From: Closterium sp. NIES-65
Taxonomy: Eukaryota; Streptophyta; Zygnematophyceae; Desmidiales; Closteriaceae
Reading direction: 5' to 3'
Assembly (NCBI GenBank): GCA_948144175.1
Contig: CANXME010002096.1
Coordinates: 3,038,001 to 3,102,000, forward strand
Length of the DNA: 64,000 bases
The notes beneath the pieces were generated by a model. The model had not been told where the DNA came from, made no database searches, and saw nothing but the letters and a program-made list of their open reading frames with translations. A program made the translations under genes and the position numbers. Shown here one piece after another: positions 31,206 through 63,560 of this stretch (position 1 is its first letter; each line of letters begins with the position of its first letter).

Positions 31206-34200
31206 TATGTTCCACCTGCAGCAACTCATGTTCCTGATCCTACAGTACTACTGCAACTGTTCCTATTGCCACAATGGCCACCCCATCCATTCTCACCTTT
31301 GACGCTGAGAGTCGCCCGATTAAGTTTGAGGTGTGGCTAGATGATCTTCACCTGTTCCTTCAGATCACTGCCAAGGACGATGTCTCACTGTATGGCCATA
31401 CGTCAGGCACTGCTCCCGCACCTCCCGCTACTGCTGACAGTACTGCTCGCTCCCAGTGGCAGACCCGTGATGCACACGCTCGCCTAGCCGTTCACAGTCA
31501 CCTACCGTTAGATGAGCGCGAGCACTTCGGACAGCATAAGACTGCCAAGGAGCTGTACGACGCAGTAGTCGCGAGCTACTCCTCCCCTACCACAGCTGCC
31601 ATAGGCCGTCTCTCACTGCCCTACCTCTTCCCCGACCTGTCCGCCTTTGCCACTGTAGCTGACCTCATCACCCACCTCCGTACCAGTGATTTCCGCTACC
31701 GTGCAGCGCTCCCCTCTGATTTCCTCGCCAAGAACCCCCCCCCGATGTACCTCACACTGTACCACCTTGTCACCCGCCTCCCTGACTCCCTTCGCACTGT
31801 CAGGGACCAGTTTCTCGCCCTCTCCCCCACTGACCTCACTGTCGACCTCCTCGAGAAGGAGCTCCTAGCAGCTGAGAAGAGCATTGTCGTCGTAGGTGCC
31901 TCTCGTGGTGACCCCCGTACCCCCTTCTTTGAGGGGTGCTCCCCCTCCCCCCTCCTCCCCTCCATTGCATCTGCTGCTGCTGTCGACTTCCTAGGAGCTG
32001 AGAGAGTCGGGGCCGCGTCTGCTCCTAGTGGGAAACGCAAGGGCGGCAGGGGCAAGGGAGGCAGGGGTGGTGGAGGTGGAGGCGGGGGCGGCGACGATGG
32101 AGGAGGTGGGGGGGGCGGGGGTGGTAGCGGGAGTGGGAGTGGCGCGGGTGGTGGGTGGGTTGGTGGCGGCACTGGGGGTGGTGGCGGCGGCGACGGTGGT
32201 GGGGATGGTGGCGGTGGTGCTGGTAGTGGTGGCGGCGGTGGAGCGGGTGGCGGGTGCGATGGAGCGGTACAGCGTGGGGGGTTTGGCGGTGACCAGAGGC
32301 AGCAGCAGCAGCGCCCCGGCAAGGCTCCCTCGCCACAGCAGCTCCGTGAGTGGTACTCTTAGCGTGGGGGGTCTGGGGGAAGGGGTACCTGCCCGTATGT
32401 CATCCGCACAGGTGACCGCACTGGCCAGACTTGTGGGAGGTTTCACACTGCGCAGCGGTGTTTCTTTCGCCTCGACGACTCCTGGCGCGAGCAGATTCCT
32501 GACGCCTCTGAGCTGCCCCGCTGGGCTGATCTGCTTAAGAAGGGGATTGATATATTTGCTCTTGATTATGATGCTATTCTTGCTGCTATGTATGCATTGA
32601 CTATTAGTGCTGAGGGTGACGGTTACCTGAGTGTTCCGCCTGACCCGGGCATTGGGACCAGTGAGGCTGCAGCTCTAGGTGCTAGCGCGTCTGCTGCTCT
32701 AGGTCTTGGTGAGGCTGCTTCCCTAGGTGCTAGTGCGTCTGCGTCTGCTTGCACCGCACCTAATAAGGCACTACACACCTTCACACTGGACTCAGGTGCT
32801 TCCCGCTGTATCTTTCGTGACCGCACTGCCCTATAGCAGCTTCCTCGACCGGTTGCTGTCTCTCTGGCTGACCCCTCTAGGGGTCCGGTCCTTGTGACCT
32901 CCACCACTGCCCTCCCTTGTCCTGCTGTCCCGTCTGGCACGCTGTCGGGCCTCTACCTCCCCTCGTTCTCTACGAACTTGGTGGTGGGCTCCGCACTCCA
33001 GGACGCGGGTGTTCACCAGTTCACCCCGGCCTACGAGCGTGTGACGCACTGCACGTGTGCTCGGACGGGACGTCACCTCGCTACGTTCACTCGGCAGCTG
33101 GGGTCGGACTTGTACACACTGACCACTGAGTCTCCTCAGGTAGCTGCGTCTGCGTCTGCGTCAGGTCAGCTGTCTGCCCCCTACTCGTGTTGCTCCTTGT
33201 CCCACAGGACTGTCCTCTGGCACCACCGCCTTGGTCACCCGTCAGTGCAACGCCTTCACGGCATGCACTCTAGGTACCTTGTCTCTAGTCTTCCCCGGGT
33301 TCTCCCTCCCCTCCCACCCTCGCCTGCTCCTCCCTGTCTTCCCTGTGTCAAGGGGCGGCAGCGCGCCGCTCCTCACTCCTCCTCGTTCCCTCCCACAGAG
33401 GCTCCCCTGCAGACTCTCCACCTGGACATGTGGGGCCCCGCCCGCGTCCGGGGACAGGGCCACGAGCGGTACTTTCTGCTGGTCGTCGACGACTACACGC
33501 GCTACACCACGGTCTTCCCCTTGCGTACCAAGGGTGAGGTCCCTGATGTCTTGATCCCCAGGATCCGCGCTGCTCGTCTCCAGCTCCGCGAGAAGTTCCA
33601 GTCGGACTTTCCAGTCCTGCCTCTGCACTCTGACAGAGGTGGAGAGTTTTCCTCTGACCTCTTGGCAGCCTACTGTGCGGAGCACGGCATCACCCAGTCG
33701 TTCACGCTCCCGGCCTCTCCACAGCAGAATGGGATTGCTGAGCGCCGCATTGGTCTTGTCATGGAGGTCGCTCATACCTCCATGATCCATGCGGCTGCCC
33801 CCCATTTCATGTGGTCGTTTGCAGTGCAGTACGCCGCGCATCAGCTCAACCTCTGGCCCCGTGTCTCTGTTTCGGAGACCTCGCCTACACTGCGTTGGAC
33901 GGGGGAGGTTGGCGATGCGTCGGTGTTCCGAGTCTGGGGATGTCGTGCCTTTGTCCGCGATACGTCCGCGGACAAGCTCTCCTCCCGTGCCGTTCCGTGT
34001 GTCTTCCTTGGCCTTGTCCCTGACGCGCCTGATTGGCAGTTTTACCACCCCACCTCGCGCCGAGTCTTCGCCTCTCAGGACGTCACCTTTGACGAGTCGG
34101 TACCCTTTTACCGTCTCTTTCCCTACCGCACTGCCCCGCTCCCCCCTCCGCCGCTCTTTCTCATGCAGGGTGCTACTTCAGTAGACCCCCTGCCTCCCCA

Positions 34201-37200
34201 GGGTGCTGCTCCCTCAGGTGTTTCCCAGGCAGACCCGGTCAAGCCTGTCAAGGTAGCTGTTGACTCTGGTCCTGTGCGAGGTACTGAGCGTGCTGAGCCT
34301 GGGGGTGCTGAGACTGCGGGTGCGGAGACTGGGGGTGTTGAGTCTGGGGGTGCGGAGACTGGGGGTGCTGAGACTGCGGGTGCGGAGACTGGGGGTGCTG
34401 AGTCTGGAGGTGCGAAGACTGTAGGTGCTGAGCCTGGAGGTGCTGCGACTAAGGGTGTTGTGCCTAGAGGGACTAAGGCTGGGGGCTTTGAGAGTGACAG
34501 TGCTGCGCCTGCTGGCGCTCCTTCTTCACAGCAGTTGCGTGAGTGGTACTCCTAGCGTTGTAGCCTTCGTCGTGAGGCTCCTGGAGTTGGGGGGTCTGCT
34601 GGGCTAGTCGTCCTGCGGGTGCCGTGTCGCAGCCGGAGCCCCCCTCCACTCAGCGGCTACGTGAGTGGTACGCTCGGCGCTGCAGCCTCCGAAGTAAAGC
34701 TCCTGGTGCTGAGGTACCGCCTGCTGGAGACGCTACCGCTGTTGGAGGTCCTGGAGCTCCTGGCAGTGCTGCTGGTGCTGCTGGAGCTGCTGGAGGCACT
34801 GGAGGTGCTGGAGGTGCTGGAGGTGCTGCTGGAGCTGTTGGAGGGTCTACTAGAGCTTCTGGAGGTTCTGGTGCTGTCTCTGCTGCTGCTAGGGGCACTT
34901 CACGGCCGCGGCCGTACTTTGTTCCACTCCTTCAGCGGGTTCTTGGTCAGCCGCCTCCTCCTAGTCCTCCCCCCTCCGTAGAGTGTCCTCCCCCTGTCCA
35001 CTCACAGTCACAGCTACCGCCTACCTTGCCGCTTCCTGGTCCTCCTCCCTACACTGGTCCGACAGGCGGTCTTACAGAGCGTCGTGAGCCTGAGTCTCGT
35101 CCTGTGTCGCCTGTGTCCCGTCCGGCGTCACCTGTTCGTACTGCTTGTGCTAGTCGCCGTGTATCACTTTGAGCGTCCGCCACCTGTCCTTGGCACACAC
35201 CGGATGTCACTGCATCCCTCCACTTCTCCACAGCGTGTCCCTCTGCCGTCTCTTCCCCCGTCCTCTCTTCCTGCCCTTGCTGACCCGGAGTTTGACTCCG
35301 TTCGTGCTGCCACTCCTATTGTCACGCGTCTCCTGGCCAATGCTGTCACTGACCCTTCCTTTGAGTCTGCTGCTGCGTCTGCCCTAGTTGCTGAGCTTGT
35401 CGACTTTGCTGCTCGCTGTCGTCTAGACTACGCTGCCATTCTTGTTGCTGAGTCTGAGTCCGTCTGTCCTCCGTCCGTCAGGGGTGAGTGTGCTCTTAGC
35501 ACGGACGTCCTTGAGGACAAGCAAGAGGACCTTGAGTGTCTTGCACCCGCTGCGCCCCATCTCGTGTCCATGCTGATTGCCCCTGAGGGAGACCCGGATG
35601 CACTAGACATCCCGACTCCTCGATCGTACGCTGAGGCGATCGAGGGTCCCTACTCCTCACAGTGGCAGTCAGCCATGGACGCAGAGATGGCTTCCTGGAA
35701 GTCCAGAGGCACCTACGTCGACGAGGTTCCCCCACTTGGGGCGAACATCGTCAGTGGCATGTGGATTTTCAGGGTGAAGCGGCCGCCGGGTTCTCCGCCT
35801 GTCTTCAAGGCTCGTTACGTTGCTCGAGGCTTCATTCAGCGAGAGGGAGTAGACTTCTTTCAGACCTTCTCCCCCACCCCAAAGATGACCACTCTTCGGG
35901 TACTACTGCACGTTACTGCTCAGCGTGACTACGAGCTTCACTCTCTTGACTTCAGCACAGCTCTCTTGCAAGCCAGCCTGCACGAGGAGATCTGGTTGCG
36001 CCGCCATCCTGGCTTCACTGGGTCGTTTCCTCCTGGTACCCAGTGGAGCCTCCGGCGGCTGATCTTCGGTCTCCGCCTGGCACCACGTGAGTGGCACGAC
36101 ACACTGAGGACTACTCTTGCGGCACTTGGGTTCGCTCCTTCTACTGCTGACCCGTCGCTGTTTCCACGCACCGACACTTCGCTGCCACCGTTTCTTGTCC
36201 TCGTGTACGTCGACGACTTGGTCTTTGCAACTGCTGACACTGAGGCTCTCGTCCATGTGAAGTCGGAGTTTCAGAAGAGACATACGTGCACAGACCTGGG
36301 TGAGCTGCGCAGCTACCTTGGCTTGCAGATCACCCGGGACAGAGCACGCCGCACCATTACCCTGACTCAGTCACACATGGTGCAGCAGGTCCTTCAGCGT
36401 TTCGGCTTCACCTGGTCCTCAGCACAGGCCACTCCTCTGGCTGTAGGTCACTTGCTCTCAGCTCTGCCTTCGGATGAGTCCGTAGAGTCGAGTGGTTCTT
36501 ACCGAGAGCTAGTTGGCTGCCTCATGTACCTGATGACTTGCACTTGTCCTGACCTAGCATAACCTCTTGGCCTTCTGGCCCGCTAAGTAGCTCCTGGCAG
36601 GCACCGAAAGGTGCACTGGGATGCTGCAAAGAGGGTGTTGCGCTACTTGTACAGTACACCGCGCATGGGGCTCGTGGTTGGAGGAGGGAGCTCAGTTGTT
36701 CTCACTAGACACTCAGACGCTTCTTGGGTTGACGACCAGGCTACTCAGCGGTCGTCACAGGGCTACACCTTCAGCCTTGGTTCTGGTTCAGTTTCGTGGC
36801 GCTCTACACGTTCGTCTTCAGTTCTCAGCTCCAGTTGTGAGGCTGAGATCTACGCCACAGCCATGGCTGCACAGGAGTTACGCTGACTCACCTACCTGCT
36901 GACCGACCTTGGAGAGAGGCCTAGTTCTCCTCCAGTGCCGTACGTCGACAACAAGGCTGCCATTGCCTTGTGTGAGGAGCACAGACTGGAGCACAGAATG
37001 AAGCACATCGCTCTCCGTTACTTCCTTGCTCGAGAGCTGCAGCAGCGTGGTCAGCTTCGTCTGCGTTACGTGGCCTCTCGGGCCAACACCACTGATATAT
37101 TCACCAAGGCACTTCAGCCTGGTGATCATCAGCGCTTTTGTACTTTGTTGGGGCGGGTGCCCACTTTTCCTCACTTGTTGTAGGCTTTGCGTGTACTGTG

Positions 37201-37536: not shown

Positions 37537-38053
37537 GGGTCAGCAGTCAAAGGAGCAAACCCAAGGGCCGCAAGTGTCATCCTCAGTGTGTTCGTGCCAC
37601 TGACGAGGCGCCTAGCAGAGACCGTTGACTTGCTGCCGAAGGCTCCACAGGGTACCTGCAGGAAACGACCTAGTGAAGCCAGGTGCGCAGCGCAGCCAGA
37701 TCTCCTCGTGCTGGCTGACTTGTAAGAAAGCTGTGCTGAAGTCAAGAGAGTGAAGCTCGTAGTAACGTTGAGCGGCAACGTGTTGGAGCATCCGAAGAGT
37801 GGTCATCTTTAGGGTAGGGGAGAAGGTCTGGAAGAAGTCAACTCCTTGTCGCTGACTAAAGCCTCGTGCAACGTAATGAGCCCTGAAGATAGTCGGAGAA
37901 CCCGACGGCCGCTTCACCCTAAAAATCCACATGCCAACGACTATGTTCGCACAGGGAGGGGGAACTGCATCGACGTAAGTGCCTGTGGACTTCCAGGATG
38001 CCATCTCTGCGTCCATGGCTGTTTGCGACTGAGAGGAATAAGGACCTGTGATC

Positions 38054-38368
38054 TGTCGGATGCCATAGGCCTTCTCCTCTCTTGCCCACGTCCCTCTCCT
38101 TTCATCTATCCTCGCGGCCATCATGGCAGAGCTCCCCTCCCGTGTTGCTTGAAACCCTCATCACTCGCACCCATCACTGTACACGCGCTCTGGCTGCATG
38201 CCGTGCTGCAACCTCACACCCCCTTCCACGGTACTTTGCCAGCTGGACTCCCCCAACTCTCCGCTGGTCCGTGTTACATCCTCTGCTTTGCTATTCCCCT
38301 TCACCCCCTTCTCACACTCCTTTCCTTGTTGCATATGATTGCGAATTTACTTCCAATCTTATGCGACA
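38054..38368 (-). repeat. 3' LTR and terminal extension of Gyp-1
   Basis: 38112-38368 matches 45016-45273. The outermost 58 bp (38054-38111) instead resembles 38371-38430, just inside the LTR. The end TGTCGGATG and the GATC duplication mark the real element edge. Confidence 0.8.
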
Positions 38369-41300
38369 GCTGTTGGATGCCATAGGCCTTCTCCTCTCTT
38401 GCCCACGTCCCTCTCCTCTCATCTATCCTCACTTGCTGCCCTTCCTTCCTTCCTGCTCTCCCTTTTCTAGGACTTCCCGTCGGGAGCCGTCCTGCCCTTT
38501 TCCCTTGCTGTTCCTTCATACCCACTTGCTTTAGCCACTTGCCCCCTTCCGGGACCTGCCCTGCTCCTGCTACTGGTCTGAAGGAACTTGCCCCATCTTC
38601 TTCCCTGTAGCCTTTACTACATTCGTGATGTGGTCCTTGCGTTGCTTCCCTGCCTCTGACTCGAGCACTAGCACTCCAGAGGGTTTCACTTCTTTCACTA
38701 CCCACCGCTCCGCTGTGAGCCCCAAATCCAGCACGTCCTTCTTTGCCTTCCGCAGGTATACCTCGGTTCCGCTCCCCACCTCCTGCCCCTTTCCCTTGCC
38801 TATCTGCAACTGCCTCTGCTGGCACCTCTTCGCATCCCTCAGCTGTGCGGTGTGAAGGTTCTCCAGTGCTGCGGGCATGAGCTTCTTTAGGTACCTCGCC
38901 CTGCAGTCTGCTAGCGCTGCCCAGTTCTCTGCTGTCCCTGCCGTCACCACGTCAGTCAGCACCTTGGGCGCTTGTACTGGTAGCATTGGCTGCCTGCCGT
39001 AGAGCAGGTAGTACGACGAGTAATCCCGCAAGGCTGCTTGTTTGCTGAACCTGTATCCCGCCGTCACCCAGTGTAGTTCTTGGTCCCAATCCCGCTCATG
39101 ATCTTCTCCGTACGCTCGCAGCCCTCTCTTGATGGTCTGAACCATTCGCTCGGTCAGGCCGTCGGACTGTGGGTGATAGCTCTGCGGTGCACGATGCCGA
39201 CTACTTTGAGCAACTTGTCAAAAGCTCCCATGAAATCTGTGCCCTGGTCGGTGAGCACCTCTCCGCACGCTCCGAACCTCGTCAGCACTTGATCCGTGAA
39301 GGCCTCCGCGATCAACTTGGCTCTCTTGCTACTCAACGCCCGCACCTCCACCCACTTTGAGACATGCTCTATCATCACTAGCACGTAACGCTTGTTCTTG
39401 CGGCTCAATGGCATCTCTCTCGCCAGGTCTAGTGACCATCGGTACCCCAACCCCATGATGGGCAAGGATTGCAGCTCTTGTTGCTCCTTCTCCAACTGCG
39501 CTTTGTTGCGGCTGCAGAGCCCGCACTCAGCCACCACTTCCTTCACTTGCCGATGCAGTCCTGCCCACCACCAGGTCGTCACCATTAACTGCGCCGTGCG
39601 GACGTGACCATAATGTCCCAGTTGTTTGTGCACCTTCTCTATTTGCCCCTTCCTTTCCTCCGGCGCTGGCACCCCTTTCCAACCTTCCTTGCTCTGCACT
39701 TGTAGCTGCTGTTGGTACCACTGATAGTGCTGTCCCCGTGCCCTGGCACGGTCGCTAACCTCCTCTTCCGCCTCAGTTTCTCCTTTGACCCAGCGCAGTG
39801 CTTCCGGATCTCCCCAGATGTCTTCTGGTCCGGCTCCTCTGTATCTCATTGCATCTGCCTCCAGCCCTACTCTTGCCATGGCTACCAGACACATTGCTGG
39901 GGAACTTGCCCTCTCTCCCGCCTTTAGATCCTCTTCAGCCGTGGTGGGTTCTGTGACAGCCCATCCACATGCTGCAGCATCTTCTCGGGGCGATGACGGA
40001 TCTTGAATTCGTACTCCTGAAGTTGCATCGTCCATCGTGCGTTCCTCCCAGTGAGTGTCTGATTCGTCATCAGCCAAGTCAGAGGCTGATCGTCGGTGAC
40101 GAGTGTGAAGGGGCTGCCTTGCAGGTACACCCTGAAGTGATTCACCGCCCATACTGCCACGAGCCCCTCTCCCTCATACGAGCTGTAGTTTGCTTTTGTT
40201 GGGCTGCAGCTCCTGCTGGCGAAGGCAACCACTCTCTCTCCCTGCTCTGTCTCTTGGCAGAGCACTGCCCCGATACCTAGAGTACTCCAGTCGGTGTACA
40301 GTGTAAAATGCTGGTCCCTCCACGGCAATACCAGCACCGGCCCCGTCTTCACTGCCTTGAGCAGGTCTTTCAAGGTCCGATCTTCCTCTTCTCCCCACTT
40401 CCACTCGCTGCTCTCTCGGAGCAGCTGGTTGAGGACTGACGCTCGGCGGCTGAAGTTGGGGACGAACTTCCGGTAGTAGTTCAAAAACCCCAGTACCGCC
40501 CGCAGCTTGCTCCTGTCCGTTGGCGCCGCCACCTTGTCCAGGACTGCGACCTTTGCCTCCTGGACGGAGAGTGTCCCGTCGGACACTTTGAAACCCAGGT
40601 ACCGCACCGTGCGCTCTCCGAATCTGCAGTTGTTGGGATGGCAGGTCAGCCCCGCCTTCATGATTGCCCCCAGCACTCGCTCCACATCCGCCACGTGGCT
40701 TGCAGCATCCTTACTGAATATGATGACGTCGTCAATGTAGCAGGCTGCGCATTTAATACCCCGCAACACGGTATCCATGGCCTGCTAGAAGGTTGCCGAC
40801 AAATTCTTCATCCCGAACAGCATGCCGTTCCACTCCCAGAGCTCATCCATGCCGTGGAACGCTGTCTTTGCTTTGTCCTCTTTGCGTATCTGAATCTGGT
40901 TAAAACCCTGTTGCAGGTCCAGTGTGGTGAAGACCGTTGCTCCCTCCACCTTATCAAAGATGCTCTCCGGCACCGGCATCGGGTAGCGGTTCGCCTTAGT
41001 GATTTTATTGAGATCTCGGTAGTCCCCGCACATACGTCGTGAGAGCACTTCTCCATTCATGTCCTTCCGCGCTGCCACCACCGTGGCCGCCGCGTACTCC
41101 GATGTGGACTCTCAGATCAAGCCTGCCTCCAGCAGCTCGAAGCACTTCTCCCGGCATATTTCCTCACCCGCTCGATGTCATCCTCCGCTTGCGTTGGAAT
41201 GTGGGCACATCGGTAGTCAGCTCGATCTTCATCTCTCCCACCTTGCTTTTGCCCAGCTCTTTGAGAGAGAAGGCAAATGCCCCCCGATAGTGCCTCAGCA

Positions 41301-41729
41301 TCCCCTTCATGACCTCTGCCTGTTCCGCGTTCAGCACTTAGCCCACTTCCCATTCCTTCTCTGTCCCTCCTTCGACTGCTGTGCGTTCTGCTGACGCCTG
41401 CTCTGCGCCCGCGGCTGTTCCGTCTGCCAACGTTTGTTCTGCTCCTGCATCCACCGCAGCCCCCGCCTCCTGGCGCCTATGCTGCTTCTGCGTTTGTGGC
41501 GGCTCTTTGCGCTGGCGTCTGTTCTGCTCTCCCTTCTAGTGTCGTCGCTGTTGGGTCCGGCCCCTTCTGCCCACCACTCCTTTTCTTCCACCTTGACCTC
41601 CATGTCCCAGAGCAGGAGCTGGACTTCCACCGTGTGCAACATCCACTCCACCGCTTGCACATCCATCCCTTGCCCGAGAGCCCGCTTTTGCTCCCACTCT
41701 GCCACTCCTTCAGCCGCTGTAGCTCCTAG

Positions 41730-42590
41730 TAGAAACCCCATGGCCAATTCTCTTTCCAGCGCCGTGGATCCTCCCCACTCTCCTGTTCGCAAGTCCTTCA
41801 CCATTCCCGGTCCCGGTGTTCCTTCCCTCATCTGGAACGCGTATGACCCAGCGTGCGCTACCAGTGTTGGCCACGCTTCCCTTGGTTGGCCGGGCGTGTT
41901 GCAGGGGTATAGCGCCAGGTGATCAGGGTAGCGCACGGGTGCTTCCTGCCGGTTGGGCTCCAGTATGTCCCTCACCAGTCTTGCCTCAGGCCTTTTCAGC
42001 TTCGAGAGCTCCAGTCGCAAACGCCCCTCCGAGAGGCCGTTCTGCCAATAGCGTCGATCTCGGTGTGATCTCGATCCCGCTTGCGCCACGTCCATTGCGA
42101 CTCCTGCCCCCAGCAGGGACGTCACCCTTCGATTTGGCGCCTTTACTGGTTCTCTCAGGTCCGTGGCGAAATCCGGGTTTTACAGCACGTACAAATACTC
42201 CCCATGAATCCTGTGGACCATCTGCATCACCGGCACCTTATCCTCGAACAGCGCCGACCTTTCGTCTTCGAATCCAAGCCCTTCTCCCGCTCGGGACACT
42301 CCCTGACATTCCCAGCCGGCGATTAGCATGTCCACTCTTTCCCATGCTGCCACCTGCGCTTCCGTTATCTCTTTTACATCATGTCCGACTTGCCCCCAGT
42401 TACCGTCCGTGGCCCCCTCCAGAATTTGTCCGGGGTAGGTACGTTTCAGCATCTCCACGTGGTGCTCTGCCATCTTCCGTACCCTGGGGTTTGCTTCCAC
42501 GTACGTCCACCTTTCGATCCTCCACCCCGCCTTCAGCGCTGCTGCCAGCCCGGTTCCCAATCCTCCGAACAGCTCTAGCATTCTCACAGG
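41730..42590 (-). pseudogene. C5 DNA cytosine methyltransferase domain inside Gyp-1
   Basis: Seen directly: motif I-like RMLELFGGLGTGLAAAL near 42584, an acidic VEANP (motif II) near 42490, motif IV-like DMLIAGWECQGVSRAG near 42320 with the catalytic Cys in a Cys-Gln pair, motif VIII-like SHRDRRYW near 42065, and motif X-like STALERELAMGF near 41768. Order and spacing fit C5 methyltransferases and most resemble the DNMT3/DRM style. The usual Pro before the catalytic Cys is Glu here. It lies between protease and reverse transcriptase in the same orientation, so it was part of the element's polyprotein. Such domains have been reported in retrotransposons of dinoflagellates and charophytes. The copy is a fossil like the rest of Gyp-1. 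Confidence 0.85.
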
Positions 42591-45015
42591 CTTCTGCAGG
42601 AGACGTTTATTCAGCAGCTCTCCGGGAATCACTTCCTTCCTTTCTGCCCACGCCTCGCGAGTCTCCCGCTGCTTCAATTCTGCTTCGGCCTCGTACCAGC
42701 TCATTTCCCCGAGTTGGTCTTCCAGTTCCACCGTCCTAGCCTGATAAGCTCCTTTTGGTTCTTGGCTTACGAACCGCACTGGCAAGTTTCCTCTTGGCCC
42801 TCTTGGCCTCTAGAATCGTGGCCGGTAGATCACTTTCTCCTGCCACGTGCAGATCGTTGCTCCCACCGCATACAACAGCCTAATCCCCATCAGCAGGTCG
42901 TAGTCTTCAGACTCAGTCACCCCGCATGTCAGTTTCACGCGGCATTCATCCCTCTCTTCGGGCTTCAACACGATCTCCACGGTGCTACGTGTACACGGCA
43001 ACCATTTCGGTTCCCCTCCTTCGGCAGTCATGACGGAGAAGCCTCGTTCCTTCAACCTTCCTCGTGTAGTTGCATCTGCTTCGCCAGCCCTTTACCGATC
43101 AGGACATGGTGAGAGCCCGTGTCAACAATGGCCATGTCCACCGGGATTCCGGCTACAGCCACTGATCCCTTTGCCGCCACCAACACTGTCGACTGACACA
43201 GCATGCGCTCCTTCGGATGCCGGTACGCTTCATCTTCCAATTCTGGGTGCTCCTTGCACAGTTGCTCCCTGGCACATCCTCCTCCCGGCATGCCTGCTCG
43301 CAGCACTCCACCTCCCCGCTGCCGATGTTCTTCTCGCCTGGTTCCTGGCCTTGCCATGAGCACGAAGGACACATGACTCTGAGTCTCCTCGTCCTCTTCG
43401 GTTGTTACAAACATCGCCCCGACGCCTCTATCCTCTCCTCCCATCTCCTCCAACTGTTCTCGGAGCTTCCGCATCTTTTCCTTGATTTCACCCCTACTCT
43501 TGCTTCTCCCTTTTGGGGGCGCTTGGCGTAACAATCCGCTTCTCTGTGACCCTTCCTTCCGCAATTCTTGCACGTGGGGCTTTTTGGGCAGTCTCGCCGT
43601 AGATGCCCCGTCTCCCCGCACGTGTCGCATCGCGGCGCTTGAGCACATTCTTTTTGCAGGTGCCCCACTTGCCCGCACCGGTGGCATCTCCTCCTGTCCG
43701 CGCTTGGGCTTTCGTCGCACGCTCTTATCTCCCCTTGAGGGCTGGCCATCCACACTCCCCGGCGGCGCTCTGCTCCGCTGGTTTTTGCTTTTTCCAGCTC
43801 GTAAAGCTTCGATCCGGTCTCGTATCTGCACGCCAGATCATACACTTGATGTAGGGTAGCCTTCCATCCCATCTCGAACACCTTCCCTCGTAGCTCCTTG
43901 ACCATTTTCTTATCCTGACCGTTGAGAAACTTGCTGATCAGGCGTCGTTTGTCCGTACACTCCATGTCCAACACTAGCTCCCGCAGGCGTCCGTAATAGC
44001 TCAGCAGTGATTCCTCGCCTTTCCTCTCGAAGTATGAGAACTGCTGCACCTTTTCCGGTGTCTGCATGGGAAATTGCCGTCTCAGGTTCTCCAGAAACTC
44101 GTCGACGATGCCCCACGGCGGTCCCTTCTGGCTTCGGTATTTCTCAATCAGCTCTTCCTGCGTGATGCAATAGTATGTTCGACAGCCCGCGGAAGAACTC
44201 CTCCGCCTCCAGCCCATCTCGCCTCCAGCGGTACTGCACGTTATCGATTTGCATCAGGTAATTTTGCAGATCTGCTCCCACGCCCGCCTGCCCGACGAAT
44301 CTCTTAGGGACCTTGATTTCACGCAAGTTAATGTATTTCCACTTCTCGAATCGCTGGCCGGATCCATCTTCTCTCCTCGCTTCGGAACCTTCCACCAGCT
44401 CCATGCCTGTCCATCGCTGCCATTCCACGGAGCCGGCTCGCTGCAGAGGGCCGCTTCCTGACTCCCCACTGGCCCGCGTCGAGTCCTCTTTCCTAACCGT
44501 CAGCAGATCTTCTTGACTCCGCCTGCGTGGCGGGATCCGATAGACTTCTCCTTCTTTCATGTTGGTTCCCACCGACGCTCTCCCCGACCCTGCCGCTCCG
44601 CGGCTTGCCTGCTCTGCGCCTTCTTGCATCTCGTCCGACGTCTCGTTACCTCCATAAATTTCTTACTGGTACGTCCGCCCGGATCTCAGCGGCATGTGGC
44701 CGCCCCACTCTTCTTTGTATGCCGAAAAAGCCACTAACCCATCGACGGTTTCCTCTGACTGGCTAGTTAATGCTTGGTAAATTTGCACACACCATTCTAG
44801 TAAAACGAGAAAACATACAAAGAAGCAAGTTAGGAATTGAGGCTAGCAACCTATGTAGACGAAAGAACTGGCATAGCTCATCCTACGCCTGCCACCACGC
44901 TTGGTCGTGACCCTGCTCCTGCACACATGCGCAAGCAATCAACAGTCATCCGACATGCAGGCAATCGTAACCGCACATCACAGCCCACCATATGTACAGG
45001 GTATAATCTGCACCA

Positions 45016-45273
45016 CTCGCTGCCATCCTGGCAGAGCTCCCCTGCCGTGTCGTTTGAAACCCTCGTCACTCACACCCATCACTGTACATGCGCTCTGGCT
45101 GCATGCCGTGTTGCAACCTCGCACCCCCTTCCACGGTACTTTACCAGCTGGACTCCCCCAACTCTCCGCTGGTCCGCGTTACATCCTCTGCTTTGCTATT
45201 CACTTTCACCCCCTTCTCACACTCCTTTCCTGGTTGCATGTGATTGCGAATTTACTTCCAATCTTATGCGACA
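45016..45273 (-). repeat. 5' LTR of Gyp-1
   Basis: About 258 bp ending TTATGCGACA, with about 15 differences from its partner, mostly transitions. On the minus strand it is followed by TGGTGCAGATT, a possible primer site of unknown tRNA. Confidence 0.8.
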
Positions 45274-47390
45274 GATCGCCTCTGCGTAAGAGCGCGGGGT
45301 CAGGATTTCTGATGCATCCAGATCTCCCTCAGGGGCAAGCAGCATGGCAGTGAGATGAGGTTCAGCAGCCGCAAGACACTCGAGCTCAAAGTGCCTGACC
45401 TCTAGGACGTGCGTGTCAAGGGCACACTCACCCCCCGACGGACGGAGGACAGTCAAACTCAGACTTAGCAACAAGACTCGCGACGTAGTCGAGAGGAGAC
45501 GCAGCAGCAAAGTCAACAAGCTCAGTGACTAAGGCAGAGGTAGCAGCAGAATCAAAAGTAGGGTCTGCGACAAGAGTGGCGAGAACACGAGTAACAGTGG
45601 GTCTAGCAGCACGAGCACGGTTAGACTTAGGGTCAGGAACGTCTGGAAGTGAGGACGCAGGAGGAGACGGCAGACAAACTCGCAGTGAAAGAGAGGAAGG
45701 ACGAAGTGCCATAGTGTGAGTGCCGGGGACAGGAGGAGGACGCGGACGAGGAACACGCCGACCAGTGCGAACAGTGCGAATAGGCGAGGCGGGACGAGAC
45801 TCAGGCTCATGATGCTCTATAAGAGAGTTTGTCTGCTCAGTGTAACGAGAAGGCGCAGGCAGTTGGGAGTCTGGCTGTACATGTGGCTGCGACTGGTCAG
45901 GCCAGTAGAAGATGGGAGACTAAGTACCTGGTGAAGTACCGAGCCAGGTGGCAGCAGAACAAAAAATGGTCGCCGCTGCACAGTGCCTCCAGCACCAGTA
46001 CCGCCAGCTCCAGCACCCACAATGCCAACACATCCAGCTCTAGGTTCTCCAGCTCCAGTGCCTCCAGCGCCAGCACCTCTAGCTCCAAGGCCTCTAGCAC
46101 TAGCGCCTCCAGCTCCATGGTCTCCAACTCCAGCTCCTCCAGCTTTAGGGTCTCCAGCTCCAGCGCCTCCAGCTCCAGCGCCTCCAGCTCCAGTGCCTCC
46201 AGCTCCAGCAACTCTAGCACCTCCAGTTTTAGCAGCACCAGCACCTCTAGCACCAGCAATACCACCAGCTCCGGTAGCTCCAGTACCTCCAGTACAAGCA
46301 CCTTCAGGACCAGCAGCTCCAGCACCTCCGGTACCTCCAACTCTAGCGCCTCCAGCACCAGCAGTACCTCCAGCACCTTCTGGACTAGCAGCTCCAGCAC
46401 CTCCAGCTCTAGTGCCTACAGCGGCAGGGCCTCCAGCTCCAACAGCGCCACTTTGAAGGCAGGTGCGCCGAGCAAACCACTCGCGCAGCTGCGGCTGTGA
46501 GACAGGCTCTCGCCGGCGAGACTGCTGTGGCGAGGCACCCGCAGGTCCTCCAGCAGACGCACTACCCTTAGGCTCAACACCCCCAAACTCAGTACCCTCA
46601 AGCTCAGCACCCCCAGGCTCCGCACCCTCAGGCTCCGCAGTCTCACGCTCCACACTCTCAGGCTCAGCACCCCCAGGCTCCGTACGCTTAGGCTCAGCAC
46701 CCCTAGGCTCCGCACCCGCAGGCTTAGCACCCCCAGACGTAGCACCCCTAGCAGCACCACCCCCAACAGCACCGGAGTCGCCAGTGACCTCGACAGGCTC
46801 AGCTAAGGGGAGTGGGTCTACCTGAGACACACCTGAAGGAGCAAGCACCTGAGGGGGGAGGGGTTCTACTAGAGGGGGACCTGGAGCGAGGAAGAGCGGC
46901 GAGGGAGGGGGGGAGAGGGGCAGTGCGGTAGGGGAAGAAACATTAAAAGGGAACCGACTCGTCAAACGTGACGTCCTGAGAGGGAAGGACACGGCGCGTG
47001 GTGGGGTGGTAAAACTGCCAGCCACGCGCGTAAGGGGGAAAGCCGAGGAAGACACGGGGAATGGCGCGGGAGGAGAGCTTGTCCGCGGAAGTATTGCGGA
47101 CAAAGGCACGAGAGCCCCAGACCCGGAACACTGACGCATCGCCAACCTCCCCCATCCAACAAAGTGTATGCGAGGTCTCCAGCAAAGAGACACGGGGCCA
47201 GATGTTGAGCTGATGCGCAACGTACCGGACCGTAAACGGCCACAGAAAATGTGGAGCAACCGCATGGATCATGGAGATACGAGCCACCTCCATTACTAAG
47301 CCAATGCGGTGCTTAGCAACCCCATTTTGCTGCGGGGAGGCCTGAAGCGTGAACAGCAGAACTATGTTGGAAAAGTCGCGCCCAGCGCAT

Positions 47391-47420
47391 TATACGCAAG
47401 CGTATATACGCTTGCGTATA
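47391..47420. repeat. Perfect 30-bp palindrome near the hAT end
   Basis: The sequence from TATACGCAAG to CTTGCGTATA reads the same on both strands. At the other end, arms ACGAATATACG (50011-50021) and CGTATATTCGT (50038-50048) form an 11-bp inverted repeat. hAT transposases bind subterminal repeats, so both are candidate binding sites. Confidence 0.8.
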
Positions 47421-47659
47421 GTGCGTTATGCGCTTCGTGAGTGACTTTGAAAGTCGCAGAAAGTACGCTGCCCGGGCAGCAAAAGGTTTTTACCGGGCAG
47501 ACGAAAAAAACCGCCGAAGGAGGGGGGGGGAGAGTGGTGGTTTTACCGAATTTCATATATTGAAAAAACCCACCTTTCTCAACTACTCAAAGCAAGCAAC
47601 ATGCATCTCTCCTACCCCACCCCCTACTCCCACCCTCTACTCCCCCCGTCCCTTCCTTC

Positions 47660-49666
47660 CTCCTCTACTTGTACTCATCCTCCTGCTCATCCTCCTCCCC
47701 CTCCTCCTCATCCTCCTCCAGAACCTCGTTGTACCCTTCCGGCAGGGAGGCCTCAGGGATGTTCCCCGGGAGAACCGTCACCCACTCAGCCCCCTTGTGC
47801 CAGTTGCGCACAATGTTCTAATTGTGCGCAACACACACGAGGTCCCGACACTTCTCGGACCCCAACCTGTTGCGCTTGGCAGTGTGGATCGATTCCCACA
47901 CTGCCCAGTTCCTCTCACACGCCGATGCGGACACTGGCTGAGAGAGAACGCGGAAAGCGAGCGTTGTCAGCTCGGGGTGCTCTGTCCCGTGCCACGTCCA
48001 CCACTGGACGGCCGTCTTCTTACCGGCCTTTACAAGCTCACGGTCAGAGATGGCGTCGGGTAGGCCAAAGCTCCCCTGAAGGGTGTTGAATGCCGTCAGG
48101 TCGTCCTGGATAAACGTGGGATGCGCGGAGCTCCTCGCCCTCCTTGCGCGTGACGGTCCGCCCTGCGTAGTGACGAGCGACAAACGTTTTGAAGACGCGA
48201 GTACACTCCAGGTCGGTGCGGAAGATGCCTTCCTCTTGGTTGACCGGGGTTTAGGATCCGGCCAACTACGTGCATGGCACACGCCATGCTATGGTCCCAG
48301 CGCTTTTGGACGATGTTGGTCACCTCCGTGCGTTCACTGCTGGACAGCACCAATCCCGCCTCCTCCTCCTCTAGCTTCGCATTGATGTCTTCTGTGAGCT
48401 GCAGCATCAGATCGTACATCCTGCACATTATGCCCTTGGCCGTCGAGTCGGTCTTGTGCATGACAACAAAGGGGATCTTCAGGAGGGCGACAAAGAACTC
48501 CGCACCTTTCCACCACACGGCATCCATGATCATGGTTGCGAAGGGTACGACCGGCGGCTTCCTCCCCTTCGCCCAAGCCTGCCACTCCGGGCTCAGCACC
48601 ATCTATGTCAATGCACTCCGCACCTCGCAAAGCCGCTGCACCGCGATGAATTGCGTGCCAAATCTGGTGCCCGCCGGCTTCAGCACCTGCTTTCCCTTCC
48701 CTCCCTTCACCTGCGGGCTTCGCATGTAACCTTTGGTGAAATGGTGGGCACGCACAAAGGTAATAATCACCCCCGCCTTAGCCATAATGTCCTTCGCCCA
48801 ATCCATTTTCCCAATGTCCTCCATGAGCAGATCCATGACGTGAGTAGCGCACGGCACATGCTCAATGTGAGGATACTCAAGCATGAGTTCCCTACATGCA
48901 GCCGCATAATTGCTGCCCCCATCCATGCATAACGCAACTATGTTGGCGGGCCCCACCTTCTCAATGATCGGCCGCAAAACGGATGCAATGTAACCTCCCG
49001 TCTTCGTCTCCAACTTACAGTCGATGCTTTCGGTGAACACTGCACCGGAATTGTTGATGAGCAGGATGTTGGCTTGGGGACGACCACTTTTGTCCGTCAT
49101 CATGTCCGAGCCTAACGTCATGCCATCCCGCTTCCAGCTCGCAGTGATGGGAGCGAGCCCCCTCTCGATCTTTTCGCGGCAGCGCGCAAGGCCGACGCCA
49201 CCAACATACCGCCGCTTCGGGGGAACGTAGCCATGGCCCGCGTCCGTGATGCAGCGCACAGCGTTGCGCCAGAGAGGGTGATCGGCGAGATGCTCCGGGA
49301 GGTGAAGTGCCGCCCACATGAGGCAGATGGCGTTGTCTGCCGATTCCTTCGCACACGACGCCCCTTCCCCGTAGATGTCTTCGATGCACTGCTTCTTCGC
49401 TCCACCCGCACACACCTCAATTGCCATCTCCTCCGCCTTCTTCTTCCCTTCCCTGCGCAACGGAAGGCGCAACGGAAGGCGCAGTGCCGGCATATGCGGA
49501 GAGTACGCTCAGGACCATTCGAGGTACCTTCGGTAGAGGTAAGGAAATGCTTAAAAATAACATGGGTGTTCACAGGAACATCCTCGTCGTCCGCCATGGT
49601 CGCGTCATTCGAAACACTAGGAGCCTCACTAGTGGCACTTGCGGGAGTACCAGAAGGAGTCGACAT
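47660..49666 (-). pseudogene. hAT transposase, decayed
   Basis: Proposed Met at 49666 (MSTPSG). Near 49540 an ICRHC segment preceded by FKHF suggests a BED-type zinc finger, though its second half is obscured by a duplicated 12-base GTTGCGCCTTCC-like stretch and a frame change near 49490. The DUF659 core follows at 49490-48606, with LGSDMMTDKSGRPQANILL, ALCMDGGSNY and HVPCATHVMDLLMEDI, the hAT RNase H-like fold. An in-frame TAG lies at 48603-48605. The helical insertion and KRWDHSMACAMHVVGRILNP follow, then a frame change near 48260, then the C-terminal dimerisation region with WWTWHGTEHPELTTLAFRVL and ACERNWAVWESIHTAKRNRL. A further in-frame TAG at about 47828 precedes an acidic tail. A leader intron with GTAAGC donor near 49743 is possible. 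The protein is inactive as it stands but recognisable over its full length. Confidence 0.9.
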
Positions 49667-52334
49667 CAAGTGCAGGTGAGCGGGAGTGTTGAGAGAGAAT
49701 GAACGAGGAGAGAGATAATACAGATGACGGGAATGAGAGCTTACCTTATAGTCCAGGATGTGGTTGAACCACCTACGCTGGTTGACGACATTCGTGTTTG
49801 TGTGTTGGAGTCGCGCGATAGCATAGGGTGCAGTGCGGTTCAAATTTTCCCACGTCCCCACATTTTGACAGGTGTGGGTGACAATGTGGTTGGGACGTGC
49901 GTACAAATTGGGGTGGGACGTGCGTACATTTTGAGTCGCGTCGCACATTCGCAATTCGTGCGCGACTATTGAAATCTGGTTTTTTTTCGGGTCAGCCCGA
50001 ACTTTCGCCAACGAATATACGTACTACTTGCGTACACCGTATATTCGTAAACGACTATACGGAGTGCGCTTATGGTTTCTGGCGACTTTTCCAACATAGC
50101 GGCAGAAGGATGCCCTCCCCACGGCAAAAGTCTTGCAGGTTGGAGGAGAACTCACCACCTTTGCCAGAGTGCAGATGTAGGAACCGCTCGCGAAGCTGAA
50201 GACGGACAGCGCGGATCCAAGGGATCAAGACATCAGGGACCTTCCCATTGCTGCGCAAGGGGAAGATCGTTGTATAACGCGAGTAGTCGTCAACAACCAG
50301 CAGAAAGTATCGCTTGCGGCCCTGTCCACTGACGCGGGCTGGGCACCACACATCCATGTGGAGAATCTGCAGGGGACCAGTTGTCAGGGGAAACGAGGAG
50401 GAGTGAGGAGCGGCGCGCTACAAGGAAGGCATTGAGGGGCATCGTGGGCGGGAGGGGAGGCAGAGACCTGGGAAGACTAGAGACAAGGAGGCGGGAGTGC
50501 ATGCCACAGAGGAGTGGCAGGGAGGGGTGACCAAGGTGGTGGTTCCAAAGGAGAGTCTGGTGCGACTGGAGGCGACACGAGTAGGGGGCTGCTACCTAAC
50601 CTGAGGCGGATAGCTGACTAGACTTAGCAACCTGAGGAGGCGTAGTAGTCAGTCTGTACAGACTCAACCCAGGCCGACGGGTGAACGTGGCTAGGTGACG
50701 GCCTATCCGTGTACACGTGCAGATTAACACACGCTGACCCCCAGGAGTGGTGATAGTGACCATCGCATCCTGGAGGGCTGCGGTACTCACCAAGTTTGTA
50801 GAGAACGAGGGGAGGTGAAGACCTGAGAGCGAGCCAGACGGAACCACCGGACACGGGAGAACAGTGGAGGAACGTGCAAGAACTGGTCCCCCTGAGGGGT
50901 CAGCCAGAGAGACTGCAACTGGTGCAGGGAGTGGTCTGGCAATGGTACTGTTGTGAAAGAAACAGCGGGAAGCATGAGTCAAGAATGAAGGTGTGCAAGG
51001 CCTCAGCAGGTGTAGTACCAGAGAGAGCAAACTCACTAGCACCTAGAGCATCAACCTCTATTCCTGGGTCGGGCGGCACACACAGGTAACAGTCCCCCTA
51101 AGCACTAACAGTCAAAGCATACATGGCAGCAAGGATAGCATCATAATAAAGAGCTAATGCATCCACATCATTCCTAAGCAGCTCTAGCCAGAGGGAGAGC
51201 TCGGCCTCGTCGCCAAACTCTTCGCGCCAGGCGTCGTCAAGACGGGAGAAGCAGCGGTACTGTGTGTGACCAATCTTCCCGCATGTCTGACTAGCATGGT
51301 CGCTTGTGTGAATAACGTACGTGCAGCGAACACTACCCCAAGATGCCCCACGCTGAGCAAACCACTCACGAAGCTGCTGGGGAGAAGGGGTCTCGCGCGG
51401 ACGCTACTGCTGCTGCCTCTAGCCACCGCCAAAACCTCCCCTCTGAGCGGCTCCACCCCGACCGCCACCACTGCCGCCACCACCACTCCCACTGCTGCCA
51501 CCACCGCCGCCACCACTCCCACTTTCGCCGCCACCACCGACGCCCCCACTCCCACCACCACTCCCATCGCCACCACCGCCACCTCCACCACCTCCACCGC
51601 CTCCACCATCGCCTCCACCGCTGCCACCCCCACCACTCTTGCCTCCCTTGCCCTTGCCGCTGCGGCGCCTCCCACTAGGAGCAGAGCAGCCCCGACCTCC
51701 TCAGCACGAAGGAAGTCAACAGCAGCAGCAGAGGCGAATGAGGGGGCAAGGGGGGAGGGGGAACACCCCTCAAAGAAGGGAGTGCAAGGAGTGCCACGAG
51801 CAGCACCTACAGCGACTATGCTAGCCTCAGCTGCAAGGAGGTGCTTCTCAAGCAGGTCGACAGTGATGTCTGTGGGGTCAAGGGCAAGAAAGTGGTCCCT
51901 GACTGCGCGAAGAGAGTCAGGGAGGCGGGTGATGATGAATTAGAGAGTAATGCACATGGGGTGGGGGTTATTTTCTTGAAACTCGGTTTTGAGCGCGACG
52001 CGGTAGCGAGTGTTGCTAGTATGAAGGTGGGTGATGAGGTCGTCGACTGTGGCAAAGGCTGACAGCTCGGGAAAAAGATAGGGCAGTATAAGGCAGCCGA
52101 AAGCAGTAGTGGCAGGGGAGGAGTAACGAGCAACTACAGCTTCGTGACGGGCAGGGCAGGGCGGCGCGCTGCTGGCAAGGCGGCGCGACGGGCAGGGCAG
52201 GGTAGCGCGCGGCCAGCAGGGCGGCGCGACGGGCGGGGCAAGGCGGCGCGCAGCTGGCAGGGCGGCGCGACGGGCAGGGCAGGGCAGCGCGACTTGTGGG
52301 GGAGCGCTTTGGGCAGGGAAATACCCGGTGGGCC

Positions 52335-52450
52335 CTAAAAAAACTGAACGAGAATGATTGCATTGACAAGAAACTGTGTACAAGTACTAACCCTGATTGG
52401 GTTGTACCCCACTACATCCTACACAATATGAACATGATAACAGTTTTACA
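52335..52450 (-). repeat. 5' LTR of Cop-4
   Basis: It matches 29045-29175 over most of its length, with about ten differences and a missing stretch. The outer edge ends TTTTACA at 52450. The inner edge is blurred and the primer site is not clear. Confidence 0.75.
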
Positions 52451-52455
52451 CTACC

Positions 52456-54679
52456 TCGGTGGCGTTGTCGTGACTCGCAGAGAACCTCCGGGCAGGGGCG
52501 AAAACAGTTGTCGCCTTCTCCCCCTTTCTGATGGGAAAATGATCACGGTGTTGTCGCTGGTACCCCCGAACAGCTTCCAAATTTTACAGGTACTCTTTTC
52601 ATGATGGGTTCTTTCGTGCGCTTAATCAAGCACCACTGCAACTCTGTCGTTGGCATGGATACTATCACCGACCCCGCCGACTCCATTAAGACTCATCCTC
52701 GGAACTGCTTGTGGCACCCGCAAATGCTAGAAATGAACCACACCACGTAAATCTCGGTCGCCTGAAGGTTGTTATACAAAAGAACAAGTGTTTCTAGCAT
52801 GCCCACCCGGTCACAATATTTTTCGTGCAGTTAACCACCCAAGCGACCCACCAATAGAAGGTGATTTTTTGGCATGGAACCCAGTACTTATGGCTCTTCT
52901 GAGACCGATTTTCACGGACTCTAGCGCGCATCAACGTCGAAGATCTCGCCGTAGAACTTTCTAGGTAACTTTTGAAGTACACTTTAAATCGCTTAAACAA
53001 CTGCTGAGAAGACGTTCACCCGTCTCCCACTGTAGAAATCTTGCCTGAAAAACATGGTTGCGGGAGCAAGCCCCGAAGTCTTTTCCACCGAGTAGCTCCG
53101 ACGTTTTCGCGGTGATCTGACGTTCACCCATCTCCACACCCGCCGGAATTACACGCGACATATCCCTGGTATCCTTGGCGATGCACACCTCCGCCGCGCC
53201 TATTTACGTAAAAACTGACCCCTTCAAGAGTCCCCAAGTAAACCCTGAATTTGCAGAGAAGTTGTGCACAGGCTCAACCGCACTCAAGAAGCTTGAAAGA
53301 GCACCCACAACTTTCCCTCTTATGTTTGGTTTTCACCCCTCGACAATTTCACTTGTCGCCGTTCACCTAGCGTCCTCTTTTGTCGGATGAGGTATACTTG
53401 GTATTGCCAGCGATTTTTATGACGTTTGATGAAGGCGCAAACGCTATCGTAGTCGGAGCGAGTTTATTATATCAAACTCTCAGCCGGCCGCTTCGCTGCA
53501 CACCGTGCCTATCGCGCTTAAGACTCCACAGCTTCGGAAACTCGCTCTTAGCTGCTACACCTTCGTTGGGTAGACCTGTTGAATTAGGAGAAACTCTGAT
53601 AGCTGCCACAACTTCTTCAATTTCGACTTTTTCTGTAGGGTGATTGGTCACCGTAGTCCCGTTTTTGTCGGAGCCGAAACAATATCGCGCCACTCCACGC
53701 ACCACTTCGAAACCTTTTCTTCACGCCCAACTGTCGAATCAGCGCAATACCCGTGCTTTTTAACCAGCACAGGGCTAAGCACAGGGTCCCACCTTATTCG
53801 TCCAGGGCCAACAGGACTTACGTATTGCCTTCAAGGCCTTCTGGTGTGAGGTATGTGAGCCGTTAGGAAACCTTGGCCGGTATTGGTACCCATCCGGCTA
53901 CCGCCAATTAGCTGCAAACTTTTAGGCATCAGCTTGAGCGTTTCTCTTAAGGTCGTTTTCTCGCCTACTGGAGTCAAAAGCATTTTCTCTCTCTAGAACG
54001 GTATTCGCCGCAACTCCGTATATCGCAGCCCGTAGAACCCCCAAAATTCGTGAGTCTAGACATTGCGCCGAATCGTTGTGCCGTTGGTGTACTGCCCCGT
54101 CTGCAACACAACTACCTCTGGCCAGAGCAATTTGTGCCGCTTGAAGTACAATATTGGCTGCCACTGTTGCCACTGTCGCCGATTGTTGGTGCAGGCACAG
54201 AAGGGACCCTAACGGAACATACTGGTCATAAGCTAGCATCAGCCTCCACACAAGTTATGCGAGGAAGCAACATCCGCGTAAAGCAACCAGCATGAATGCG
54301 CCTAGAAGATACACGAAAAGCTACCGCGATTAAATTGGTGCGGAACCCTAAATGCCCGCTGAACAACGACAGGGTTATTACAAGTGGAAGTGTCAATGTC
54401 ATTTATATGGCCCTGTTCGATAGGCTAACACCTTGCAAAAGGCAAGGGTAAGGCTACTGTTAAGGGGAGGGTGCAGCACAACTTCTCCTAGCTGGTCGAC
54501 CGCCCAATCAAAAGCCCTGCCCCTAGGGATCGGAAGGAGCGGGGCCCTGAGGGCGATGCTGCGGAGAATAGGCGATTATGGGAGAACCTAGGTGCAGAGT
54601 TGCACGATCGAAGAGTGAAGTGTGAGGTTTGCGATAGGGACTTGCTGGAAACCGGATATTGGTATTTGAAGAACAGTAT
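52456..54679. other. Unassigned region between Cop-4 and Cop-6
   Basis: No convincing gene. Open frames are short (for example 53175-53390 on the plus strand) and match no family I know. Base composition is near balanced, unlike the GC-rich Copia elements. It may be decayed host DNA or a very old repeat. Confidence 0.4.
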
Positions 54680-54793
54680 GCTGGGTATGCAGCAGCAAGC
54701 TTGGTATACAGTAATGAAAAGAAGGTAATTGATTAATTGATTGATTACAACAGATACAACATGAACCTTATAGGAAACATAGTGACGTGTGCG

Positions 54794-54845
54794 AGAACGT
54801 TCTACGAGAACGTTGTCCATAAAGAACGTTGTCCAAGGAGAACGT
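54794..54845. promoter_or_regulatory. Cluster of GAACGTT motifs, heat-shock-element-like
   Basis: GAACGTTC at 54795-54802 is a perfect GAA-nn-TTC dimer. Further GAACGTT words start at 54808 and 54824, and a GAACGT at 54840. On the minus strand a CCTATAAGG TATA-like box lies some 30 bases downstream. Position fits the promoter part of the Cop-6 LTR. Heat response is an inference. Confidence 0.4.
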
Positions 54846-55326
54846 GCAAGCACCTACTCTAGTAAGTGGTTCCAGGTTGGCACCGCCAGGTGAAAATACC
54901 ATTGGGTGAAAATACCATCAGGTGCATTTTCTACCTGCCCAGTAGTAGTTGCGCAGGTGCTCGCAACAGATAGCTGCACATACTCGTTTGTGCAATGTCG
55001 TTACTTCCCTCCATTTCGGTTCAGTGTTGAACAATGCATACCAAAGCGCACAGATTGGAGTGTACTCGGTGAATACAGAACCTCCGGTATGCGGTATGCG
55101 AAACCTCGCTGCATCGCATAGGGCTGCTACACGCAAAACCAGGCGCGTGCAGGGCTTCACCTTAACACTCCCCTGCCCTGCTCGTGCCTAGGCAACTGAG
55201 GAGTTAGCACACCACACAAAGCGAAAAGGAAATAATAGAGTACAACAGGGTGACGATTCTGAAACTCGTCCGCATGTTTCCGCACACGCATACTCACCGC
55301 ACCAGCCATGTTGAAGGACATGGCAC

Positions 55327-60100: not shown

Positions 60101-60589
60101 TCACGCAGCTGCTGGGGCGTGAGGGACTCACGCAGACGTCGATGGGGCTGCATCTGGCTCCACCAGTAGAGGCAGGAGCAGGAGTAGCAGCAGTAAGGCA
60201 GGCAGCCAGGCAAGCCAAAAAGGGAGGCAGGCAGGCAAGCAGGCGACGCGCAGCGTGCTAGCAGGGCAGGGGCTCACCAGTGGTGGGTAGAGTAGGCTCG
60301 GCGACTCAGCGGCTCGGCAGCACGGCGGCTCTGCGGCTCGGGCGACTCGGGCGGCTCGGCAGCAACTGCAGCTCGGCAGCTCGGCGACCCGGCGGCGCGG
60401 CTGCTGGGAGGCTCGGGTGTAGAGCGGCTCGGCTGCAGGGCGGCGCGGCTGCTAGGAGGCACGAGACGAAGGAGGAGGAGAAGCAGGGGAGACCACACAC
60501 CTGCCACCCCTCAGCGGCCCCCTCAGGTCGCCTCGACAGGCGACGGGAAAAGGGGGAGGGGGGGGGGGGGGAGGCGGCTCGCGGGCAGT

Positions 60590-61580: not shown

Positions 61581-61705
61581 GGGGCCGCAGGGCAGGCCGA
61601 AAGAGTGAGAGCGAGGGCCCGGAGCGCGCTCCAGGCAGAAAAAAAAAAGTTTAAAAAGTGGTGGGCCCTTAGCACAGTTCCCACGGGGGAACCGGCTCGA
61701 TACCA

Positions 61706-63119: not shown

Positions 63120-63560
63120 GCCCCTCGTGCCAGCCCTAGCGGCCCCGTCTCCGCCCTTCCAGGCCCCTCGCGGCCCCTAGGGGCCCCGTCGCCACCCCTA
63201 CGCGGCCCCGTCGCCGCCCCTAGCGGCCCCGTCGCCGCCCCTAGCGGCCCCATCGCCGCCTCTCTCCCTACACAGCCCCGTCGCCGCCTCCCTCCCTACG
63301 CGGCCCCGTCGCCGCCCCTACGCGGCCCCGTCGCCGCCCCTAGCGGCCCCGTCGCCGCCACTACGCGGCCTCGTCGCCGCCCCTACGCGGCCTCGTCGCC
63401 ACCCCTACACAACCCCGTAGCCGCCCCTAGCGGCCCCGTCGCTGCTCCCCTCCCTACGCGGCCCCGTCGCCGCCCCTAGCGGCCCCATCGTCGCCTCTAC
63501 CGGCCCCGTTGCCGCCTCTACCGGCCCCGTCGCCGCCTCTACCGGCCGCTTCACCGCTGA
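63120..63560 (+). repeat. GC-rich minisatellite leader of Cop-7
   Basis: Units like CGGCCCCGTCGCCGCCCCTA, about 21 bp, repeat some twenty times with variable spacing. 63555-63640 then shows GAGCCGCC-type words like those in the Cop-2 leader. Confidence 0.88.

Follow-up and report, generated by a model that had tools for sequence, protein, structure and literature searches.

In the present study, a stretch of 64,000 nucleotides (nt) of Closterium sp. NIES-65 (contig CANXME010002096.1, positions 3,038,001 to 3,102,000), hereafter the window, was analysed, and we found that its minus strand at 38054-45273 holds a full-length but mutated Ty3/Gypsy retrotransposon with a C5 DNA methyltransferase inside pol. 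A preliminary description had placed such an enzyme between the protease and the reverse transcriptase (RT) of a Gypsy element, and this was borne out by frame-by-frame translation, Pfam and repeat comparison. The element is very probably a dead copy of a Ty3/Gypsy family with a C5 methyltransferase in Pol, of the KnitGypsy-Dnmt3 kind; this kind was assigned by design (gene order, Pol phase and repeat layout) from its published description. In addition, two features that had been missed were recognized, namely terminal repeats split in the layout A-coding-B-A-B and a duplication of GATC inside a Copia element. The element carries the type of enzyme that cells use to mark and silence such elements.

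The order on the minus strand is gag, CCHC knuckles, a DTGS protease, the C5 methyltransferase, RT (YIDD), RNase H and a DDE integrase; this order contains the Ty3/Gypsy succession of gag, protease, RT, RNase H and integrase. The Pfam scan covered ten frames of the element and returned zf-CCHC in the gag frame, RVT_1 (E 3.9e-10 and 1e-07), RT_RNaseH, Integrase_H2C2 and rve (other E values in Table 1). The protease frame gave sub-cut-off matches only; Asp_protease_2 was outscored there by Gln_amidase (E 0.0009), which lies over the gag part of the frame, and the protease was named from its DTGS motif together with the sub-cut-off match.

Between the protease and RT lies a C5 methyltransferase. 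A profile search, which the preliminary description had proposed, gave PF00145 (DNA_methylase) at 29.3 bits, above its cut-off of 22 (E 7.8e-07; 27.4 bits with a longer read of the enzyme), the match being limited to the motif IV region (profile positions 42-94 of 324). The NCBIfam model TIGR00675 reached 28 bits, far short of its cut-off of 100.65. The motifs outside the PF00145 match rest on an alignment with six phage C5 methyltransferases and on the predicted fold. Among the 20 columns invariant in this alignment are Phe and Gly of motif I, Glu of motif II, Cys-Gln of motif IV, Asn of motif VI, two Arg ahead of YW and a C-terminal Gly. The fold was predicted with moderate confidence (mean predicted local distance difference test 71.7, predicted template modelling score 0.76, residues 236-270 below 50 on the former scale) and matched C5 methyltransferases in a structure search (E 2e-13). 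Furthermore, the protease tail, the methyltransferase and RT/RNase H all lie in minus frame 1, and this shared phase speaks for a domain of the polyprotein.

The terminal repeats show how the element arrived. In the coding orientation they run A1, coding region, B1, A2 and B2, so the element lacks the usual pair of complete terminal repeats. The B repeats measure 60-61 nt and are 97% identical, and the B1|A2 joint, CAACA-GC-TGTCG, looks as if both ends of the element had been joined through GC. The outer ends, TGTCG...CGACA, are of the TG..CA type and are flanked on both sides by GATC, a short duplication of the Ty3/Gypsy sort. When the two flanks were joined, they aligned across the site with three uninterrupted Copia copies (3314-3619, 35481-35785 and 19020-19325) with an identity of about 81%; two alignments are gap-free and one has two gap openings. 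As the duplication is present and uninterrupted copies match the joined flanks, the insertion is integrase-like and into a Copia element. The outer end of the right Copia flank (47268) was set by an open frame. Related Copia copies lie on both strands of the window at 1784-5020, 17603-19799, 32837-37183 and 57802-60273, with matching stretches about 73-93% alike, and two of the window's copies bear marked 15-nt coding repeats.

This copy is dead. Stops interrupt the main pol frame at 42810, 42180, 41331, 40785 and 39924, and frame changes occur elsewhere. The preliminary description had listed the methyltransferase motifs in the orientation of gag to integrase; their order and orientation hold, but it did not mention that the motif VI Glu position, located with the six-phage alignment, is a stop codon (42180-42182), and the catalytic frame is not intact. 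Between the repeat copies there are 18 differences over 318 positions (Kimura two-parameter distance 0.059), namely 13 transitions and five transversions.

Motif IV of the enzyme reads Glu-Cys-Gln in place of the usual Pro-Cys of C5 methyltransferases. The Glu before the catalytic Cys had been pointed out as unusual, and it is both genuine in the sequence as read and exceptional: Pro stands at the aligned position in 86 of 86 loci, of which 80 were fetched with a pattern admitting Pro or Glu, while one further locus (L001 of the 87) had no aligned residue. The viral relatives used were the best 80 of 279, drawn from 600 stretches listed. The Glu could be a mutation of the dead copy after insertion, and would then be uninformative on the family; the several stops and frame changes of the copy and the uniform Pro of its relatives would agree with this. 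However, the step from Pro (CCN) to the observed Glu codon takes at least two transversions within one codon, which is unlikely at a rate of five in 318 repeat positions, and we therefore consider a late mutation rather doubtful and suggest that Glu before Cys may be a family trait. That it marks a distinct subfamily, as the preliminary description proposed, is conjectural. If Glu-Cys proved to be selected in sister copies, it would probe how far the C5 catalytic motif can vary.

The window enzyme seems to lie on the DNMT3-like side of the C5 enzymes. Among solved structures, DNMT3A chains come closest to it in sequence, with a weak match (E 0.0052, 19 bits). The strongest profile match is the phage family phrog_116 (E 2.2e-12), and viral relatives reach 40 bits with phmmer against the 19 bits of DNMT3A, which would favour as its source a C5 enzyme of phage-like or giant-virus type, acquired independently of the one in Klebsormidium, over a host DNMT3. 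Such a source is unlikely in our opinion. Human DNMT3A likewise has its best match in phrog_116 (E 4.4e-23), and for this reason the phage profile was dropped as evidence of phage origin; the viral rows, moreover, were chosen as the best of their relatives, as given above. A tree of 46 rows (the window enzyme, two DNMT3 sequences and, of the 80 viral loci, the 43 with a suitable open reading frame; the six phage loci were excluded) left the window enzyme unplaced, on an end branch of 8.64 flagged for long-branch joining. Structure matching was equally dropped as evidence for DNMT3 descent. All 50 Protein Data Bank matches listed for the window model, out of 159 at E 0.001 or below, were DNMT3-family chains, with identity of 15-20%, but the viral control L076 gave the same result (all 50 listed of 222 were DNMT3-family entries), so the fold match does not single out DNMT3.

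It could also be supposed that the methyltransferase gene, of host or viral origin, landed by chance in one old Gypsy copy and is no property of a family. A single copy is visible, and blastn of the element against the window found no other. Against this stand the orientation and phase that the gene shares with the protease tail and RT, the lack of any repeated stretch inside the element besides A and B in the same comparison, the exact element ends with a single target duplication, and the methyltransferase in a Gypsy Pol frame published for K. nitens (PMC5890265), and we regard a chance insertion as very improbable. Among viral contigs scanned with the two methyltransferase halves and RT no relative was found, and a scan of genome contigs yielded one weak bacterial locus (46 of 209 residues matched). 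That a tyrosine-recombinase element of the DIRS/PAT type was misread as Gypsy is hardly credible, for although PAT, Ngaro and Viper (PMC4157794) as well as DIRS (PMC8969392) are described with split direct repeats, and SymbioDIRS-Dnmt3 also bears a C5 methyltransferase (PMC5890265), the element matches H2C2 and rve integrase families, no tyrosine recombinase family is among the Pfam matches of its ten frames, and it has a 4-bp GATC target duplication, which DIRS elements are described as lacking (PMC8969392).

For a dead copy of a methyltransferase-bearing Gypsy family, the following course may be proposed. A living relative would make Gag-Pol and package the methyltransferase beside RT, and the packaged enzyme could methylate the new double-stranded complementary DNA (cDNA), or circles, before integration. 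Methylation of cDNA was proposed for the Symbiodinium DIRS elements by de Mendoza et al. 2018 (PMC5890265); the chances that it takes place in the present family before integration seem to us evenly balanced. Reverse transcription would produce a linear element of the ordinary kind, its terminal repeat being B+A, and the two ends of this element would then join into a circle. If integrase opened this circle at the B|A joint and not at the A|B joint, the product would be A-coding-B-A-B with an integrase-type target duplication, and the internal B1|A2 joint is what the proposed cut site would look like. A wider proposal, for which we claim a minor probability only, is that a Gypsy lineage converged on the split repeats of tyrosine-recombinase elements while keeping its DDE integrase, by way of a circle opened at B|A, with the Glu-Cys methyltransferase marking the circle or cDNA before integration.

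Several points weigh against the interpretation as a methyltransferase-bearing Gypsy family. No convincing transfer RNA (tRNA) primer site was seen after A1 in a comparison by eye with known tRNA ends. The purine run upstream of B1, a possible second-strand primer, is one of seven runs of at least 14 in the element and was kept as a weak candidate only. When the K. nitens enzyme was assayed in yeast, no methylation resulted, and its authors call the assay inconclusive (PMC5890265). Lastly, the CpG count given next includes changes into or out of CpG and favours CpG somewhat. The count itself speaks for the interpretation: seven of the 13 transitions between the repeat copies fall on the 36 of 318 bases that belong to a CpG in one copy or the other (Fisher p 1.4e-4). 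This excess suggests that the host methylated the element at CG, as it would a silenced element. The whole element has a CpG observed/expected ratio of 0.79, a mild depletion.

Table 1. Features of the Gypsy element and of its insertion site, in window coordinates
Feature	Position	Strand	Basis
Interrupted Copia, left flank	37592..38053	-	84% inverted match to Copia copy 35638-36099
Target-site duplication GATC, left	38050..38053	.	Flank comparison
Repeat B2, 3' end in coding orientation, terminus ...CGACA	38054..38113	-	58/60 identical to 38371-38430
Repeat A2, internal; a few bases shared with B2 at the A|B joint	38111..38369	-	94% identity to 45016-45274, 259 nt
Repeat B1	38371..38430	-	Direct repeat comparison
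Integrase C-terminal part, including catalytic Glu region YHPQSDGLTER	38573..39217	-	Frame 2; by motif, no relevant Pfam family (best E 0.25)
Integrase, H2C2 zinc-binding and rve core	39157..40173	-	PF17921 8.4e-11, PF00665 9.5e-11
RT and RNase H	39927..41111	-	PF00078, PF17917 5.5e-32, PF17919; internal stop 40785
C5 methyltransferase core, motifs I to X	41610..42635	-	PF00145, phage alignment, fold match, codons
ECQ of methyltransferase	42303-42311	-	Codons read
Protease C-terminal part	42813..43091	-	By position; in methyltransferase phase; stop at 42810 ends the piece; no Pfam match
Gag-pol junction and aspartic protease (IVDTGSHHVLIG)	43055..43837	-	PF13650 E 0.0026, below cut-off; motif read
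Gag, three CCHC zinc knuckles	43408..44253	-	PF00098 1.2e-13, three stretches
Gag N-terminal part, other frame	44147..44662	-	Open frame, position only; no Pfam match
Repeat A1, 5' end in coding orientation, terminus TGTCGCAT	45016..45273	-	Repeat and flank comparison
Target-site duplication GATC, right	45274..45277	.	Flank comparison
Interrupted Copia, right flank	45274..47268	-	Three inverted Copia matches (35481-35641, 35173-35484 and 34000-34146)

Elsewhere in the window, no tRNA genes were found, and Rfam gave no match at the gathering threshold. Nine other frames were searched in Pfam: one was DUF659, two were Copia or gag pieces, one had two sub-cut-off matches and five had nothing. The DUF659 frame (48606-49508, minus strand) is a strong match (PF04937, 7.2e-34); DUF659 occurs in hAT-like transposase genes. 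No inverted repeats of at least 40 nt were found in the region around it (47300-56000). The Copia, Gypsy and DUF659 content points to a eukaryotic host, and a GC-rich, Copia-rich window would suit a streptophyte alga. A tandem array at 60481-61700 has a 31-nt period and 31 register positions, and values of about 87% and about 95% similarity to the reference alternate in its middle part, as if the unit were 62 nt. Repeats of 72/24 nt and of about 81 nt lie at 9513-10388 and 12057-12900 within long open frames, and the three plus-strand frames of this region that were searched in Pfam (8480-9532, 10702-12477 and 12700-13557) had no match. In addition, a long antisense open frame with a near-identical start (WGHRGPRDPGVKVELMRR) is present in two Copia copies, at 1019-1774 on the minus strand and 58345-59100 on the plus strand, and its later part recurs in a third copy at the window edge (63457-63999, minus strand). 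This antisense frame may be a mere side effect of codon use.

Retrotransposons with their own C5 methyltransferase have been reported in dinoflagellates and charophytes (PMC5890265), and the preliminary description had assigned the element to such a lineage. The likeness in design stands, the charophyte KnitGypsy-Dnmt3 being the best parallel; common descent may be supposed. Both that element and ours have Gypsy domains, a C5 methyltransferase in the Pol frame and DIRS-like repeats, the last as given in the Fig. 4 legend of PMC5890265, and because the split-repeat layout is common to both, the parallel is stronger than had been recognized. They differ in that key residues are reported as conserved in the K. 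nitens copies (PMC5890265), whereas ours has the motif IV Glu, and in that our element shows a target duplication, whereas in the main text of PMC5890265 'Target site' is absent and 'TSD' appears once, for a LINE-type element. Among the open-licence PMC papers listed in searches on methyltransferase-bearing or split-repeat elements, no report of a Gypsy element with a C5 methyltransferase was seen beyond that paper and papers citing it.

SymbioDIRS-Dnmt3 of Symbiodinium likewise has the A-coding-B-A-B layout and a C5 methyltransferase in the RT polyprotein, but with a tyrosine recombinase (PMC5890265), where the window element has an rve integrase and a target duplication. PAT-type DIRS elements also have split direct repeats, A1-B1-A2-B2 (PMC4157794), but they rely on a tyrosine recombinase, and target duplications are described as lacking in DIRS elements (PMC8969392). 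The methyltransferase of DIRS is of the adenine type (PMC5890265), unlike the C5 cytosine enzyme found here. Another paper has the wording 'LTR Copia and DIRS' (PMC12344493). DNMT3A/B and phage phrog_116 share the small C5 methyltransferase fold but have Pro in motif IV, where the window enzyme has Glu. Split repeats are otherwise described for tyrosine-recombinase elements (PMC4157794, PMC8969392), and in the literature found, the published exception outside them is KnitGypsy-Dnmt3 (PMC5890265). The arrangement is therefore already known from one green alga, and the present element adds an unusual motif IV and a charophyte-type design with exact ends, a duplication and an empty-site comparison, by which split repeats are tied to integrase-type insertion.

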